Source: a virus
Strand: one strand, 5' to 3'
Virus record (IMG/VR): IMGVR_UViG_3300007038_000013
Span: 1-23,357 of that record
Length of the DNA stretch: 23,357 bases
Below the pieces are notes generated by a model that searched no databases, was not told the DNA's origin, and was given only the letters and a program-made list of their open reading frames with translations. The stretch's first letter is position 1, and each line of letters starts with the position of its first letter. A program made the translations under genes and the position numbers. Of the stretch, positions 3,514 to 23,357 are shown in pieces.

Positions 3514-5406
3514 TTATGTGCTACGCTGTACTCTACGCAGTAGCCTGTCTGCAGTCATCTGCTCCAACGCAGCCTGCAAGGTCTGGTACGTTTCGCTCAG
3601 AGACCTGCCGCTCCGATACGAGCGCCTATCAATGAGCCGCCCAGCCTTTCGGCGGCCCAGGGATTTATCGTATCGCCCAGCGCTGTACGCCCAACTGATG
3701 CCCAGCTCCGACTCCAACTCGCTGCCAGAGGGCTCGCCCTCAAGCTGGGACAGGTAGATAGCCGCTGCGTGCCCTGAGGCTGCCTCTGCAGCAGTCAGTA
3801 ACCAAGACTGCGCCTGTTGACTGTGTGCGCTTAGTATCGCTACAGCATCCTCTACGGGCGTCTCTGACGACCGCTCTACGGACGCCTCTGACGACCGTGT
3901 GCGCGTACGTGCACGGTGACGGCGCCGGGCGCGAGGGCGATCTTTTCGGGACCGTGTGCTACCGCTCGATGGGATGGCGAGTACCTCGTCGATCTTGTCG
4001 TAGTCTTTCTGACTGGCGAGGTCTTTCTTTTCGAGGCTTGGGCGGACAGTCAGCTGCTCCAACCCGCTCCAGCTGCGCACAGCCTCTATCGCCTGCTCTA
4101 CAGCCCTGTCTATGTCACCATCGACGTACTCAATGCCATCGTGATCCGCGAGGGCGACCTCCAGCTCGCAGCATAGGGCCGCAGTCAGAAGCCCTTCCAT
4201 GCCTTGGAGATACCAGGCCAGGGCGTTTTGCCCTGCGTACTCGCAGCCCATTGGATGGGAGAGCGCGCCTGCTTCTGCTGCGGTTTGAGCGGCCTTGCTT
4301 AGACGCTGCATCCCAGCCTCAAGGTCAGCGTACGCATCAACCAGAGTATCTAAGGCGTCTTGACCGGCGCCCATACGCTGCAGTGCTGCAGCAATGCTGC
4401 CTGAGTCGCGATCCGCCAGCATTTGCTGCTGTTCGACGCTACGCGGAAGCTTACCTCCATACCTTAGGCCGTGCGCTGCGATCTTGGCCATCTTCTTCCG
4501 GTCGACATCGACGTCATCCTTATCGATCTCAGTAGGCAGGTCTACGTCTAAAGTCTGCGCGAGGATAGCTGATAGGTCCTTGTGACAGGAGGCCCAGTCG
4601 TATGTCGTAGTCTGACTGAAGATCTGATCTTTGATCGCAGCGGGTAGGCTCTGGATCATCGAGCGCGTGTAGATTCGCCCGTGCCGGTCGGCCTTGTAGC
4701 TGACTTTGAGCTGGCCATCTGTTGTCTGGTCCTTCAGGCTCTCTACAGCCAGGATTAGATGGGCGAGGATAGGTACGTCATCTTTCTCAACGGCGTGCTC
4801 TAAGCGCTCCAGGAGACGCTCACGTAGGTCCTCTACGACGCTAAGGTCGTAGCTATACGTACACTCAGCGTCACGTATCCAATAAGTCTGTGCGGCGGTA
4901 GCGCTGCTGACGGAGCTACTGACAGCGCGTGCGGGCGAGGTTTTGTCTTTCGACCGCGTGTGCGCTTTGTAGCGCGTCTTGCTCGTTGTTTCCAGCCCTG
5001 CTTTCAGGTACTGCAGGTACCAGCTGTGATCCAGACGATACTCAGCTGTACGAGCGGGTAGGTCAAGATCGGAGTCGGGAGAGATATGATGCTGGGCCTT
5101 TTCTATGGGAAGGGATTCGTAAATTCCCTCACTGGCCATCCCTGCGACTGAGCCGCGATACCCTGTCTGCTTGCGGAAACCTTTCGCGTGCACGCCTACA
5201 GTTGGAAGATGTACAGCGTCGAGATCACTGGCTTGGTAGTACGCGCGATTGTAGCTGGTCTTTTTGATGACAGCGGCTAAGAACCGTCGGGCATTACGCT
5301 CGTCTGGGTGACCCTCAACGGACGCGTCAATGAGATTGCGTTGGCTGGAGGTCGCTGTGAGCTCGTAGTCGACCTTCGGGGCGGTTTCCTGTTTGGATTT
5401 TGCCAT
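3514..5406 (-). CDS. Divergent family A (Pol I-like) polymerase
   Basis: The product is 630 residues; the ATG at 5406 follows GAGGAAG. The palm and fingers signatures of family A polymerases occur in order: GRIYTRSMIQSLP (243-255, cf. GRLSS..PNLQNIP); motif A YDWASCHKDLSAIL with catalytic D270; motif B (O helix) KKMAKIAAHGLRYGG, K304-x3-K308-x3-H312-x3-Y316-G317; a QG at 401-402 as in the NAPMQG helix; and motif C ADHDGIEYV with H422-D423. The spacing from D270 to D423 (153) is a little shorter than in Pol I (177). Residues 1-230 show no 3'-5' exonuclease motifs. The last 150 residues are an extension with a very basic stretch near 486-505 (RPRARRRHRARTRTR). The usual Glu five residues after the motif A Asp is H275, and the usual O-helix Phe/Tyr is H312. 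It heads the leftward operon beside the repeat-rich region, so it probably replicates this phage. A single-subunit RNA polymerase is the alternative, but motif B is closer to DNA polymerases. Confidence 0.75.
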   Translation of the reverse strand: MAKSKQETAPKVDYELTATSSQRNLIDASVEGHPDERNARRFLAAVIKKTSYNRAYYQASDLDAVHLPTVGVHAKGFRKQTGYRGSVAGMASEGIYESLPIEKAQHHISPDSDLDLPARTAEYRLDHSWYLQYLKAGLETTSKTRYKAHTRSKDKTSPARAVSSSVSSATAAQTYWIRDAECTYSYDLSVVEDLRERLLERLEHAVEKDDVPILAHLILAVESLKDQTTDGQLKVSYKADRHGRIYTRSMIQSLPAAIKDQIFSQTTTYDWASCHKDLSAILAQTLDVDLPTEIDKDDVDVDRKKMAKIAAHGLRYGGKLPRSVEQQQMLADRDSGSIAAALQRMGAGQDALDTLVDAYADLEAGMQRLSKAAQTAAEAGALSHPMGCEYAGQNALAWYLQGMEGLLTAALCCELEVALADHDGIEYVDGDIDRAVEQAIEAVRSWSGLEQLTVRPSLEKKDLASQKDYDKIDEVLAIPSSGSTRSRKDRPRARRRHRARTRTRSSEASVERSSETPVEDAVAILSAHSQQAQSWLLTAAEAASGHAAAIYLSQLEGEPSGSELESELGISWAYSAGRYDKSLGRRKAGRLIDRRSYRSGRSLSETYQTLQAALEQMTADRLLRRVQRST

Positions 5407-5467
5407 TTGACTTCCTCAGTTAGTTCTGCTGCTATCGAACTGGCTGCGAGACCAGTGAGGTGCGGGC

Positions 5468-5533
5468 GGGAGATAAGGCGGCGACCTTTTGATATGCTCG
5501 CAGAAGCAACAGCACCGCTCTACCTTATCTCCC
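5468..5533. repeat. 11-bp perfect inverted repeat upstream of polymerase gene
   Basis: GGGAGATAAGG at 5468-5478 is matched by its exact complement CCTTATCTCCC at 5523-5533, with a 44-nt interval. It lies 62 bp before the polymerase start codon, so in the leftward transcript it would fold the 5' leader. As DNA it could be a paired operator. Confidence 0.75.
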
Positions 5534-5549
5534 TTCCGACCTCAATCGT

Positions 5550-5560
5550 TGTTATGGGAC
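5550..5560 (-). repeat. GTCCCATAACA element, reverse copy upstream of polymerase
   Basis: Exact copy of the 11-bp element in the leftward orientation, 144 bp before the polymerase start codon. It is therefore upstream of the early operon and points the same way as it. Confidence 0.7.
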
Positions 5561-5659
5561 AAGCGGTTAGTCTTGTCTCGCACTACTATATAGACGTAGT
5601 CAACACGCGAAAAGTTACACGGTAAATGTGAAGCGCTTGTGAATCGTCTATTGGGCGGT

Positions 5660-5692
5660 CAGTTCCATAACACACATAGTGCATCAGCAGGA
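5660..5692 (+). repeat. Long direct repeat, copy 1 (with CATAACA element)
   Basis: CAGTTCCATAACACACATAG followed by TGCATCAGCAGGA matches 6075-6105 except for one CA insertion and two substitutions. It carries the near-exact copy of the GTCCCATAACA element at 5662-5672. It sits directly against the iteron array. Confidence 0.75.
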
Positions 5693-5757
5693 TTTGTTTG
5701 CACTTTGTTTGCACCTGTTTGCACTTCAGGATTTCAGGCTTCAACGGCTGCAAACAG
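5693..5757 (+). repeat. Iteron array: three tandem TGTTTGCAC copies and one inverted
   Basis: TTTGTTTGCAC occurs at 5693-5703 and again at 5704-5714, followed by CTGTTTGCAC at 5715-5724. The shared core TGTTTGCAC repeats every 11 and then 10 bp, placing the copies on one face of the helix. A further copy in reverse, TGCAAACAG, lies at 5749-5757. This is the arrangement of iterons or multimeric operators bound cooperatively by one protein. The nearest encoded candidates to bind it are the RHH protein, the Bro-N protein and the polymerase itself. Confidence 0.75.
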
Positions 5758-5842
5758 CGATTTTGGCCCTATTTTGGCCTATCTGAAGAACGGCAAAGTG
5801 ACACCCTATAGGAGGAGGGACTAAGTGTAATAACCCGTCCGT

Positions 5843-6067
5843 CCATAGCCTGGCCCAGCTATGGCCCGCCCAGCTATGGCCCTCACGGACAGGCCTGCCC
5901 TCCCGACCAGGCCCTTCCGCACGGCCCGGTTGGTAGGCCCGCACGGCCCTTCCGGCCATAGCTCCCGCCTGACCCGCTGGGCCGTAGCCCCCGCCATAGC
6001 CCGCCAGGCCATAGCTCCCGCCTGACCCGCCCGGCCATATCCCGCCATAGCCCGCCAGGCCGTAGCC
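5843..6067. repeat. C-rich degenerate repeat block
   Basis: This is a strongly C-biased, low-complexity stretch built from variants of CCATAGC and CGCC. Two long units begin at 5954 and 6007 (53 and 51 bp); each starts with GGCCATAGCTCCCGCCTGAC and ends with CGCCATAGCCCGCCA. The ten-mer AGCTATGGCC occurs at 5857-5866 and 5872-5881, and its reverse complement at 5954-5963 and 6007-6016, so the block can fold on itself. Composition is unlike the rest of the genome. No start codon with a ribosome site opens it in either direction. Confidence 0.7.
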
Positions 6068-6074
6068 AGCGTCC

Positions 6075-6105
6075 AGTCCCATAACACATAGTGCATCAAC
6101 AGGAG
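6075..6105 (+). repeat. Long direct repeat, copy 2 (with GTCCCATAACA element)
   Basis: CAGTCCCATAACACATAGTG followed by CATCAACAGGA is the partner of 5660-5692. The two copies bracket the iterons and the C-rich block. This copy lies 44 bp before the Bro-N gene start. Confidence 0.75.
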
Positions 6106-6133
6106 TCAAAGTCCATAAAGCTAGTCAAAAGCC

Positions 6134-6139
6134 TACAAT
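6134..6139 (+). promoter_or_regulatory. Possible -10 box for a leaderless Bro-N transcript
   Basis: TACAAT lies 9 nt before the ATG at 6149, and no Shine-Dalgarno precedes that ATG, unlike most genes here. Transcription from this box would start almost at the ATG, giving a leaderless mRNA. The same CTACAATCA string recurs in both copies of the 65-bp repeat (6803 and 7050 areas). No good -35 is visible, so an activator or a different sigma factor would be needed. Confidence 0.3.
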
Positions 6140-6148
6140 CAAAAACAG

Positions 6149-6721
6149 ATGGATGACCTAAGAGAAACGGCAGACGGAAGCTTAGCTCTACACAGAGAAC
6201 CTCAGACGGCATACATCCCAGACTCAGACGGCCAGGCTCACGAGGTCAGAGTATGGCCAGAAGCTGGCCATATGCTGGCTAAGGATCTAGTCGAGGTCTT
6301 AGGCTACAGAGGGTATAAGGGTGTAGCGTATCATTGTACTGACGAGGTCTACTGGGCAACCAACTACCAGTCAACGACTGGGCCCAGTCGGCTGATCAGT
6401 GACGAGGACTTAACGCACGTCATCGATACGACCAAGGATAAGGAGCATGTAGCGGGCCTCACAGCACAGACAGCTATCGATCAGCACGCTAAGGACGCTA
6501 AGGACGACTCAAACCCAACCCGCCGCCTGCACACCCGCCGCAGAAGCCGCCGTGACCAGTCACACAGTGATACTGAGCAGGTATCCGGAGAATTCCAGCC
6601 CGGCCTCAAGGCGGAGCTACAAGAGGTCGAGAACGAGCTCCAAAAGACCAAGGCTCGTCTGCGGAGTGCCCGGCGGCTGATCGGTCATTACAGGCAGATG
6701 ATAGACGAGGAGCTCGCGTAG
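6149..6721 (+). CDS. Bro-N domain regulator (antirepressor-like)
   Basis: The product is 190 residues. Residues about 20-65 fit the Bro-N DNA-binding domain common in phage antirepressors: a short strand HEVRVWPEAGHMLAKDL followed by VEVLGYRGYKG, corresponding to the family pattern iRvv...pwFvakDVa.aLGy. The middle is basic (RRLHTRRRSRR, near 125-135). The C-terminal 45 residues form a heptad-rich coiled coil (ELQEVENELQKTKARLRSAR) likely used for oligomerisation. It is transcribed away from the polymerase operon and stands alone, so it is a likely early regulator acting on the divergent region. There is no ribosome-binding site upstream. The domain call is moderately sure; the regulatory target is inferred. 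Confidence 0.65.
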   Translation: MDDLRETADGSLALHREPQTAYIPDSDGQAHEVRVWPEAGHMLAKDLVEVLGYRGYKGVAYHCTDEVYWATNYQSTTGPSRLISDEDLTHVIDTTKDKEHVAGLTAQTAIDQHAKDAKDDSNPTRRLHTRRRSRRDQSHSDTEQVSGEFQPGLKAELQEVENELQKTKARLRSARRLIGHYRQMIDEELA

Positions 6722-6787: not shown

Positions 6788-6852
6788 GTAGATGCACCCG
6801 CGCTACAATCACTGAACCCTCTTACAATAGGCCATTATGAGTGAGCAAACCA
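6788..6852 (+). repeat. Direct repeat copy 1 (65 bp)
   Basis: It runs from GTAGATGCACCCGCGC to GTGAGCAAACCA and matches 7035-7102 with one substitution and a 3-bp indel. It contains CTACAATCA, TTACAA and AGGCCATTATGAGTGAG. The last 18 bases overlap the end of the truncated Bro-N reading frame on the other strand. Confidence 0.9.
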
Positions 6853-7034: not shown

Positions 7035-7102
7035 GTAGATGCACCCGCGCTACAATCACTAAACCCTCTTACAAAGATAGGCCATTATGAGTGAGCAAAC
7101 CA
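7035..7102 (+). repeat. Direct repeat copy 2 (68 bp), provides nuclease gene leader
   Basis: This is the second copy of the repeat. It supplies the upstream region and the first codons of the nuclease gene: the AGG at 7078-7080 and the GTG start at 7091 lie within it. The two copies begin 247 bp apart. Confidence 0.9.
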
Positions 7103-7594
7103 GACGTCAGAGAAGTCAGAGAAGTCAGGAGCACGTATACGGGGCAGGAGACCTGGAAGCGGCACAGGCGATATGGATGGGACGCGCCAGCCTGCGATAT
7201 CGATTGCATTGAATACGACTATGGTGCGCCGGTTGCTATGATTGAGGACAAGCACTCCAACGCCAGCCCTGACGAAGGCACGCGCACGAATCATCCGACA
7301 CAAAACGCCAAGCGTGCCTTGGCAGATGCTGCCGGTGTGCCGTTCTTCAGTCGGCGCTACTGGACAGAAAGCTGGATGCAGCTTGTGATCCCATTGAACG
7401 AGGAGGCAGATGTCCTGCTGCATACCGCTGGCGAGCTGCTGACAGAGTTTGAGTACGTCGATATGCTCTATCGGCTCAGGGACAGCGAGATGCCCGGAGG
7501 CTTAGACCTTAGCGGTCGCGTCGACCCAGCCGCGCAGGACTGGTGCCTGAAGTATCACCCAAATGCCCTGATCGTAGACGAGGACTTTGCATGA
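7091..7594 (+). CDS. PD-(D/E)XK-like nuclease
   Basis: The product is 167 residues, read from a GTG at 7091. The frame is closed by TGA at 7088-7090, so this is the only early start. An ATG at 7087 opens a different 41-codon frame. Residues 27-55 read RRYGWDAPACDIDCIEYDYG then APVAMIEDKH: an acidic DID, a strand, and E-x-K, which is the core of PD-(D/E)XK nucleases (D..., ExK). The later WMQLVIPLNEEA strand also fits the fold. It leads the packaging genes, 135 bp before TerS. A role in DNA processing at packaging, host DNA degradation or recombination is possible. A 9-bp tandem duplication (CAGAGAAGT twice, 7108-7125) gives VREVRE near the N terminus. The fold is likely; the role is open. Confidence 0.6.
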   Translation: MSKPDVREVREVRSTYTGQETWKRHRRYGWDAPACDIDCIEYDYGAPVAMIEDKHSNASPDEGTRTNHPTQNAKRALADAAGVPFFSRRYWTESWMQLVIPLNEEADVLLHTAGELLTEFEYVDMLYRLRDSEMPGGLDLSGRVDPAAQDWCLKYHPNALIVDEDFA

Positions 7595-10692: not shown

Positions 10693-10709
10693 AGACAGAG
10701 GGGCAGTAT

Positions 10710-10720
10710 GTCCCATAACA
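10710..10720 (+). repeat. GTCCCATAACA element, portal-scaffold gap
   Basis: Exact copy in the 136-bp gap between portal and scaffold genes, followed by ACAGTAGG. The overlapping string ACAACAGTAGG (10717-10727) also occurs exactly at 8182-8192, just before the terminase large subunit. Confidence 0.7.
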
Positions 10721-21485: not shown

Positions 21486-21491
21486 CATAAT
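21486..21491 (+). promoter_or_regulatory. Possible -10 box before the receptor-binding gene
   Basis: CATAAT lies 36 bp before the start codon with a weak TTGTAG 16 bp upstream (21464-21469). The same (A/C)ACATAAT string appears behind the portal gene (10686-10692) and behind the polymerase stop on the - strand (3506-3512). It is a weak candidate only. Confidence 0.2.
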
Positions 21492-21527
21492 TAAAGTAAG
21501 GCTCTACTCAACAAGAGGATAGGATAT

Positions 21528-23357
21528 ATGCAGCTACAAGGACCTGTACGTATTGAGGGACCGACCGTACCCGGCGCGCAGCAGACAACGACCTTTGAGG
21601 CGTACGCCTCAGCAGATGCGCCGTGCATTGTGCGCTGGGAAGACGAACGGGAGAGTTCTGGCCGCATGCAGACGAACCGTGCCGGAACGGAAACCCTCAT
21701 TGGCCCGCCGCGCTGGCGAGGCCGGATTACTGTTGGCTTTGGCGCGCTAAGCCCAGAGCGTGCATTGGAGCTTCTGTTTCAGCTACGTAAGGGAGAGATT
21801 GACATTACGCCCAGAACCGACGACGGCTCTACCAGCGTAGGTATTGACGCAACCGGCGACGGGATTACCGATTTCGTTATTGAAGAGACAACACTGGCCG
21901 TGCGGCTGGTGTCTGACATCCCATCTACAACCAGCCTACAGCGCACGGCCAAGGAGCTGGTGCGTAGTGATATAGAGGTAGAACTTCGCACCAAGCAGGT
22001 CTATTCGGAGATCCCAGGCTTTGGGACGCCAACGCTTTGGACCTTTGAAGCGGAAGCAACGCAAGGCGACACTTTAACCGCCAGCTTCGACGGAGGCACT
22101 CGCAATCAGATTGAGCGATGGATTGTCACTGACAACGCTACGGGCCAGACGGTCGCGGTCACCAACCAGACCGACTTTGAGTTCGTTGGCTTCCTTTCAG
22201 GCACCAGAGAGTACACTATTGGCGTGCAGATTGCCGCCAACAGCTTCGACGCTACCGAGCGCATCCAGATTGTAGGCGACGTCGCCCGCGTGATCTGGGA
22301 CAACGTTGACTTTGAGGCGATCCCTGCAGATGCACCCATTGTCGCCTTAGATACCGACCATCCGCGCGTAAGTGCGATGCAGATGCTCTTCGATACCAGC
22401 TTAGAAGATGTCGGCCAGGGCTACACACCCGTCCAGCCGGGCAATACCAATGTTGGCCTGCCCTTAGACCCGAATACCGAGTACACCCTCGCTGTTGAGG
22501 TTGAAACCAGAGATGGCGATAGCGTAGAGCGCCGGCTGATCCAGGGCGTGCCAGCGGAGACGATTGTCAACGGCGAAGGGATTGGCGTAAGCTACGAGGA
22601 GACGCTCTTCAATTTCGGCTACGCGGGCGAGCATCGGATGACGATCGCTGGGGCAATGCCCAGCATGCGTTTTGCCGACCAGCACTACGAAGATGTGCCC
22701 AACAAGCTCTTAGCAGTAACCGAATGGAGCGACCTCAAATGGACCGGCTTTGCACGCGCATTCTACGGCTGCAGTAACCTCTTGACGACGGGCTACGACC
22801 TAATCTACGACGGAATCGACTGGACCGTGCCTGTAAGCCCAGAGCCTGCAGAGTACGTACCCGAGCCTGTAGGCGAGGCTCTGCGGACCTTTGCCGAGTG
22901 TACCCGCTACGGCGATCCGGCCCGCGTCGGCACCGATTGCGATATTGGCGACTGGGATATGAGCGGTGTGATTGGCATTGGGCGACGCGGGCTCGGCCCC
23001 GGCACTCCGTATGCTCGTCGAGGGTTCTTTTGGAACTGCACCAATTTCAACCAGCCGATCGGCACCTGGGACACATCGGGTTTTCTCGATGTTGGCGGCG
23101 CACTCGCAGATTGCGAAGCGTTTGATCAAGACCTCAGCGGATGGGTTATGAGCCAGTGCGAGCGGTTCTGGGGCCTCTTCCGCTCTGCCTCAAACTACAG
23201 CAACGCCGGACAGCCGTTGGATTGGGACATGAGTAGTGCTGTGATTACACTACGTATGTTCTTCGGTACGGATTTCAACCAACGCATCAGTGCAACAGGC
23301 GACCTCAGCAGCCTCGTCAATGCAAATAGTATGCTACGAAAAACGCCTTTCAATCAG
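21528..23357 (+). CDS. Receptor-binding/tail fibre protein with BspA (DUF285) repeats, N-terminal part
   Basis: The gene starts at the ATG at 21528 with AAGAGGA (21512-21518) upstream and is open to the window end; it resumes at base 1 in the same frame. This piece gives the first 610 of 1085 residues. Residues 1-200 are a beta-rich, Thr-rich start (RIEGPTVPGAQQTTTFEAYA, then VRWEDERES) that should bind the tail tip. Ig/FN3-like segments follow (RNQIERWIVTDNATGQTV, NTEYTLAVEVETRDG). From about 385 the BspA module begins with the canonical entry LLAVTEWSDLKWTGFARAFY and GCSNL, followed by repeats such as FNQPIGTWDTSG and FDQDLSGWVMS. BspA repeats are known in bacterial surface adhesins; in a phage fibre they would make a long recognition surface. 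Confidence 0.82.
   Translation, partial: MQLQGPVRIEGPTVPGAQQTTTFEAYASADAPCIVRWEDERESSGRMQTNRAGTETLIGPPRWRGRITVGFGALSPERALELLFQLRKGEIDITPRTDDGSTSVGIDATGDGITDFVIEETTLAVRLVSDIPSTTSLQRTAKELVRSDIEVELRTKQVYSEIPGFGTPTLWTFEAEATQGDTLTASFDGGTRNQIERWIVTDNATGQTVAVTNQTDFEFVGFLSGTREYTIGVQIAANSFDATERIQIVGDVARVIWDNVDFEAIPADAPIVALDTDHPRVSAMQMLFDTSLEDVGQGYTPVQPGNTNVGLPLDPNTEYTLAVEVETRDGDSVERRLIQGVPAETIVNGEGIGVSYEETLFNFGYAGEHRMTIAGAMPSMRFADQHYEDVPNKLLAVTEWSDLKWTGFARAFYGCSNLLTTGYDLIYDGIDWTVPVSPEPAEYVPEPVGEALRTFAECTRYGDPARVGTDCDIGDWDMSGVIGIGRRGLGPGTPYARRGFFWNCTNFNQPIGTWDTSGFLDVGGALADCEAFDQDLSGWVMSQCERFWGLFRSASNYSNAGQPLDWDMSSAVITLRMFFGTDFNQRISATGDLSSLVNANSMLRKTPFNQ
23259..23357. repeat. Terminal overlap, right copy (identical to 1-99)
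   Basis: Right-hand copy of the 99-base overlap. It should be removed once when the genome is circularised, giving 23,258 bp. Confidence 0.97.

Follow-up and report, generated by a model that had tools for sequence, protein, structure and literature searches.

Does the 23-kb genome of a siphovirus-like phage encode a polymerase of its own, and if so, to which family could this enzyme belong? The question is raised by one open reading frame of virus record IMGVR_UViG_3300007038_000013, whose product had been proposed in a sequence-only reading to be a divergent family A-type polymerase. In this study, we analyzed the whole stretch of 23,357 bases (hereafter the window) and compared the candidate protein with sequence libraries, genome collections and profiles of known phage polymerases.

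Genome, host and the polymerase-like gene

The window carries a 99-nt direct terminal repeat (1-99 = 23259-23357) and therefore most likely represents a complete genome of ~23.26 kb, which agrees with the small genome size (23 kb) assumed before. Profile scans recognised terminase subunits, portal, scaffold, major capsid, tail completion and tape measure proteins; judged from this gene content, with a tape measure present and no sheath seen, siphovirus is a fair reading of the phage. The major capsid protein was closest to those of Salinibacter phages (~31% identity), and DUF285 repeats (BspA-like), a kind of repeat known from BspA-family genes, were found in the receptor-side gene (73-1527). 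A BspA-family gene is also carried by Salinibacter plasmid pSR35. Because of both the capsid similarity and this DUF285/BspA link, the host probably lies in or near Rhodothermota, and is probably a salt-loving bacterium. The receptor-side gene itself appears to cross the terminal repeat (window 21491-23357 and 1-1527).

None of the scanned proteins was recognised as a helicase, primase, clamp, integrase or exonuclease, and such absences should mostly be read as absence of recognition. The polymerase-like gene was the sole recognisable replication gene in this phage and in its only relative described below. The earlier argument that phages of such small size normally depend on the polymerases of their hosts does not hold as a strict rule, as phi29 (~19 kb) encodes its own family B polymerase. 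The open reading frame was found where it had been placed, on the minus strand (5406 to 3514), which had not been given before. The gene and the regions outside its motif-bearing core are as follows:

3514-5406, minus strand: orphan polymerase-like gene, 630 aa (open reading frame; 57% identical homologue; purifying selection)
4852-5406, minus strand: N-terminal region, residues 1-185 (no conserved DxE; no polymerase profile similarity)
3847-3966, minus strand: Arg/Ser-rich linker, residues 481-520 (33% identity, length varies)
3517-3846, minus strand: C-terminal region, residues 521-630 (40% identity to the homologue; no polymerase similarity)

The single relative of the 630-aa protein was protein P0003 of IMGVR_UViG_3300023283_000372 (L001), a complete small phage genome of 22,921 bases (22.9 kb) with a 127-nt terminal repeat. 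The two polymerase-like proteins shared 57% identity, compared with 94% for the capsid, 75% for the terminase and 72% for a 167-aa protein encoded at 7091. Both genomes were collinear where compared, with the polymerase gene oriented divergently from the structural cluster in each of them. Identity between the two polymerase genes was 0.65, 0.73 and 0.34 at codon positions 1, 2 and 3, respectively, and thus purifying selection on this gene is clear. By segment, protein identity was 0.48-0.58 for residues 1-230, 0.71-0.78 for residues 231-440 and 0.33-0.40 after residue 480; thus, the motif-bearing part is the best conserved. Consistent with the previous claim that an N-terminal exonuclease motif is missing, no DxE pair was conserved in the N-terminal part, and residues 1-185 could possibly form an origin- or DNA-binding part. 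The "added basic domain" suggested for the C-terminus consists of an Arg-rich linker (approximately residues 481-520) and, behind it, a distinct region of weak conservation (33-40% identity across the two).

Two other features of the window were noticed. First, the 167-aa protein (phrog_16357; 7091-7594), whose gene adjoins the terminase genes, contains a D-x-D ... E-D-K pattern resembling PD-(D/E)xK nucleases. Second, near-identical 40-nt plus 26-nt direct repeats occur at 6788-6852 and 7035-7102, ~250 nt apart, the second of which ends at the start of the gene at 7091.

Searches of Pfam, NCBIfam, PHROGs and PDB sequences yielded no meaningful match for the 630-aa protein. As noted before, it matches no named phage polymerase group, here with respect to these libraries. 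A loose search with PF00476 (DNA_pol_A) gave no match to it, and the same search was positive in ten control genomes; PF00940 gave no match either, a result of little weight since no control genome matched. No relative beyond L001 was found when viral contigs were scanned by protein, alignment and motif pattern, for the capsid as well as for the polymerase-like protein; a scan of the genome collection for the polymerase-like protein returned nothing, and a profile search of ~640 Bacteroidota/Rhodothermia genomes returned chance or low-complexity matches only. The idea that the protein defines a clade therefore comes down to two sequences in the collections searched. Among the candidates rejected, three motif-pattern matches (L010, L012 and L014) were due to chance and a fourth (L011) was an ordinary family A DNA polymerase, and weak tblastn matches in a Microviridae record (no matching gene in that stretch) and in Thiothrix plasmids (a protein without polymerase motifs) were discarded.

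Motifs and profile comparison

The motif positions noted previously proved correct (GRIYT 243-247, D270, K304-x3-K308-x3-H312-x3-Y316-G317, Q401-G402 and H422-D423). All named residues were invariant in the pair except K304, whose counterpart in the homologue is Arg or Lys, depending on the placement of a one-residue gap. The motif segments are:

4675-4689, minus strand: DxxGR (D240-R244), followed by I-Y; D, G and R invariant in the pair
4582-4602, minus strand: motif A, YDWASCH, residues 269-275 (D270), invariant in the pair
4453-4500, minus strand: motif B, RKKMAKIAAHGLRYGG, residues 303-318, aligned by hhalign to motif B of phage DNA polymerases
4201-4206, minus strand: QG, residues 401-402, aligned by hhalign to QG of phage DNA polymerases
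4123-4146, minus strand: motif C, DHDGIEYV, residues 421-428, aligned by hhalign to HDEI of phage DNA polymerases

When the protein was shuffled 100,000 times, DxxGR / D / K(x7)YG / QG / HD came up in this order, with loose spacing, in only 2 cases. The claim that all core family A signatures occur in order was too strong, as S-x-x-E in motif A, TxxGR and HDE are absent. First, TxxGR is replaced by DxxGR (D240-x-x-G243-R244), as in RNA polymerases. Second, motif A (DWASCH) keeps its Asp, and the position of the steric-gate Glu (E710 of Pol I) is His275. Third, motif B has K308 (with a basic residue at -4), Y316 and G317, and His312 stands at position 762 (F762 of Pol I), where Phe, Tyr and Leu distinguish the described types of phage PolA (PMC6302109). 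Finally, HD of motif C is invariant, as is D421 before it, and followed by Gly, giving HDG versus HDE in DNA polymerases or HDS in RNA polymerases. As three features of family A DNA polymerases (the Pfam profile, TxxGR and the steric-gate Glu) were missing, we filed the protein as a family-A-like, diverged variant. Of the features used for RNA polymerases, DxxGR was present, and a PF00940 match, HDS in motif C and D-x2-C-S-G in motif A were not found.

The intervals from DxxGR to motif A, A to B and B to C were 30, 38 and 114 residues, compared with ~35-42, 47-55 and 115-144 in family A DNA polymerases and 116-125, 71-112 and 156-181 in phage RNA polymerases; some first-interval values in this comparison (22-24 or 102) are regex matches at other T-x-x-GR sites. 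By this measure, the spacing is nearer to that of DNA than of RNA polymerases, yet more compact than either.

For profile comparison, the two-sequence core (residues 190-480) was aligned by hhalign with a profile built from ten diverse family A DNA polymerases of phages. The score was 36.0 (P=3.4e-4), statistics that come from one sequence pair, for which several comparisons were made, and motif B, QG and HD of the core were placed unprompted on their DNA polymerase counterparts. None of 200 block-shuffled decoys reached this score (best decoy 25.6). Scores on the polymerase profiles were at most 20.3 for the reversed core, for other protein pairs of both phages and for the N- and C-terminal regions, and the core scored ~21 on a Y-family control profile. 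When bacterial Pol I was added to the DNA polymerase profile, the core score fell to 24.6-28.8, and the profile evidence is therefore good, not overwhelming. Alignment of the pair with single T7 polymerases was not significant. AlphaFold2, run with two sequences, gave a pLDDT of 34 for the whole protein and 41 for residues 185-480, the low confidence reflecting the lack of homologues; the order of helices and strands in the latter model is compatible with a family A palm and fingers, which we do not count as evidence, and Foldseek with this model returned noise only.

Taken together, the decoy-beating, in-register profile match and the near-DNA-polymerase spacing sustain the proposal of a divergent family A-type polymerase, and the missing family hallmarks weaken it. 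We consider it somewhat better than an even bet (probability about 0.55) that the protein is a right-hand polymerase of the family A superfamily, beyond detection by sequence libraries, which would serve as the replication polymerase of the phage.

A different protein with chance motif resemblance would account for the absence of a database family match and for the low-confidence fold, and motif A is also similar to D-x2-S-x-Y of family B. However, the ordered motif set is very rare in shuffles and invariant in the homologue, the profile alignment is in register, and the motif B spacing and HD suit family A rather than B, which makes this explanation very improbable.

The main rival reading takes the protein for a single-subunit RNA polymerase, functionally like that of T7, which would transcribe the phage from promoters containing a repeated 12-mer (TGTCCCATAACA, see below). 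It agrees with DxxGR in place of TxxGR, with the lack of Glu at the steric gate, and with "LSAIL" after motif A, which resembles "YSAIL/FSAML" of phage RNA polymerases. The core scored 26.6 against a profile of nine phage RNA polymerases, a value reached by 1 of 200 decoys, and hhalign placed DxxGR on DWRGR of T7 RNA polymerase, a placement not significant alone. On the other hand, the DNA polymerase profile matched better, all three spacings are DNA-polymerase-like, QG is present, and motif C is not HDS.

Upstream hairpin and repeated 12-mer

The region upstream of the polymerase gene contains conserved elements that bear on its possible role, and copies of the 12-mer are found elsewhere in the window:

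5452-5546, minus strand: hairpin upstream of the polymerase gene, with an 11-bp perfect inner stem, an internal loop and an outer stem (supported by z-score and paired changes)
5585-5643, minus strand: promoter-like stretch, comprising a TTCACA-N5-TTCACAT box (5643-5625) and TATATAGT (5592-5585), conserved in both phages
5550-5561, minus strand: TGTCCCATAACA, 144 nt before the polymerase ATG, with two mismatches at the matching place in L001
6075-6086, plus strand: TGTCCCATAACA copy with one mismatch, 74 nt before the gene at 6149
10709-10720, plus strand: TGTCCCATAACA copy, 112 nt before the scaffold gene

The window hairpin is 95 nt long and lies 46-140 nt upstream of the polymerase ATG. A hairpin of 103 nt with a different sequence occupies the same place in L001 (7853-7955, plus strand), and the end of the inner stem is ~61-64 nt from the ATG in both phages. 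Five of the 11 inner-stem pairs were altered on both sides between the two phages with pairing kept, i.e., by compensatory changes, and folding energy was far below that of shuffles (RNA z-score -5.1 for the window and -9.0 for the homologue). A terminator scan was empty and no T run follows the hairpin, which speaks against its being an intrinsic terminator. Given the promoter-like stretch upstream of it, the hairpin could act as an mRNA leader for the polymerase gene, as a structure of the origin or as an inverted pair of protein sites, RNA and DNA functions being inseparable with two sequences. The spacing within the promoter-like stretch was nearly equal in the two phages (33-34 nt). In addition, GC-rich imperfect repeats (CCCGCCATAGCCCGCCAGG) occur at 5830-6080 in the divergent intergenic region of the window, and none was seen in the corresponding region of L001.

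A primase-polymerase or self-priming initiator, with the same palm but starting chains from rNTP or dNTP at a hairpin origin, would fit the conserved hairpin adjoining the gene, His at the sugar-selecting positions and the absence of a recognised primase among the scanned proteins. However, no zinc or primase domain was seen and the hairpin may be a mere mRNA leader, and we regard such an activity as improbable.

The 12-mer recurs before three operons of the window phage. In L001, an exact copy lies 107 nt before the scaffold gene, and CCCATAAC is found upstream of the counterpart of the gene at 6149. Allowing for as many as two mismatches, six copies were counted, versus 0-3 in shuffles. Besides those before the three operons, copies were observed at 2314, at the stop codon of a gene, and at 5661 (two mismatches). 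TGTCCCATAACA may act as a promoter or be the operator bound by the Arc-like protein encoded at 2428-2628. Its recurrence before three operons, at matching places in both phages, is what an RNA polymerase with its own promoters would predict; however, the 12-mer is short and could be a host promoter or repressor operator, and together with the spacing, QG and profile results this leaves the RNA polymerase explanation unlikely, albeit a serious competitor. Both the hairpin with its compensatory changes and the repeated TGTCCCATAACA are new observations beyond the sequence-only reading.

Proposed role and comparison with known systems

A replication polymerase is favored because neither phage has another gene that was recognisable as serving replication. 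In such an enzyme, D270 and D423 would bind the two metal ions, the triphosphate would be contacted by K308 together with the basic residue four positions before it, and H275 and H312 would occupy the places of E710 and F762 of Pol I. The protein would copy the phage genome with the remaining replication proteins supplied by the host, and its N- and C-terminal regions would probably recognise an origin in the intergenic region 5407-6148; both suggestions follow from the failure to recognise a helicase, primase, clamp or exonuclease. A bolder version, which we hold to be quite doubtful, places the protein in a third branch of the superfamily of family A, its motifs falling between those of DNA and RNA polymerases, and makes it a one-protein replicase for which the conserved hairpin beside its own gene would be the starting point. 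It would be in line with DxxGR, His at both sugar-selecting positions and HDG on the one side, versus DNA-polymerase spacing and QG on the other.

If active, the replication polymerase proposed here would be a very compact, deeply diverged family-A-like enzyme outside current profile libraries. Its sugar-selecting residues, unlike those of both DNA and RNA polymerases, would allow DNA/RNA selectivity in the superfamily to be tested from a new start. It would also account for the copying of the genome in a siphovirus of 23 kb, and could be a minimal one-protein copying machine. More generally, replication genes of small phages can escape profile annotation entirely.

With regard to known systems, the 630-aa protein shares with phage family A DNA polymerases (T7 gp5, SP6, Herelleviridae, Fromanvirus and the like; PF00476) the motif order, QG before motif C, HD, the K-x3-x-x3-YG helix with a preceding basic residue, and a spacing near the known range. 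It differs from them in lacking a Pfam match, S-x-x-E and an exonuclease motif, in having DxxGR, His at 762 and HDG, and in its N- and C-terminal regions, which showed no polymerase similarity. With the single-subunit RNA polymerases of Autographiviridae (T7 gp1; PF00940), it has in common DxxGR-[IV]-Y, S-A-x-L after motif A and K-x3-x-x3-YG-[SG], whereas its spacings are much shorter, QG is present, motif C is HDG instead of HDS, and no similarity to their N-terminal part was detected. Finally, phi29 with its protein-primed family B enzyme is likewise a small phage with its own polymerase gene, but the family B spacing of motif B, the DTD motif C and a terminal protein gene were not seen here.
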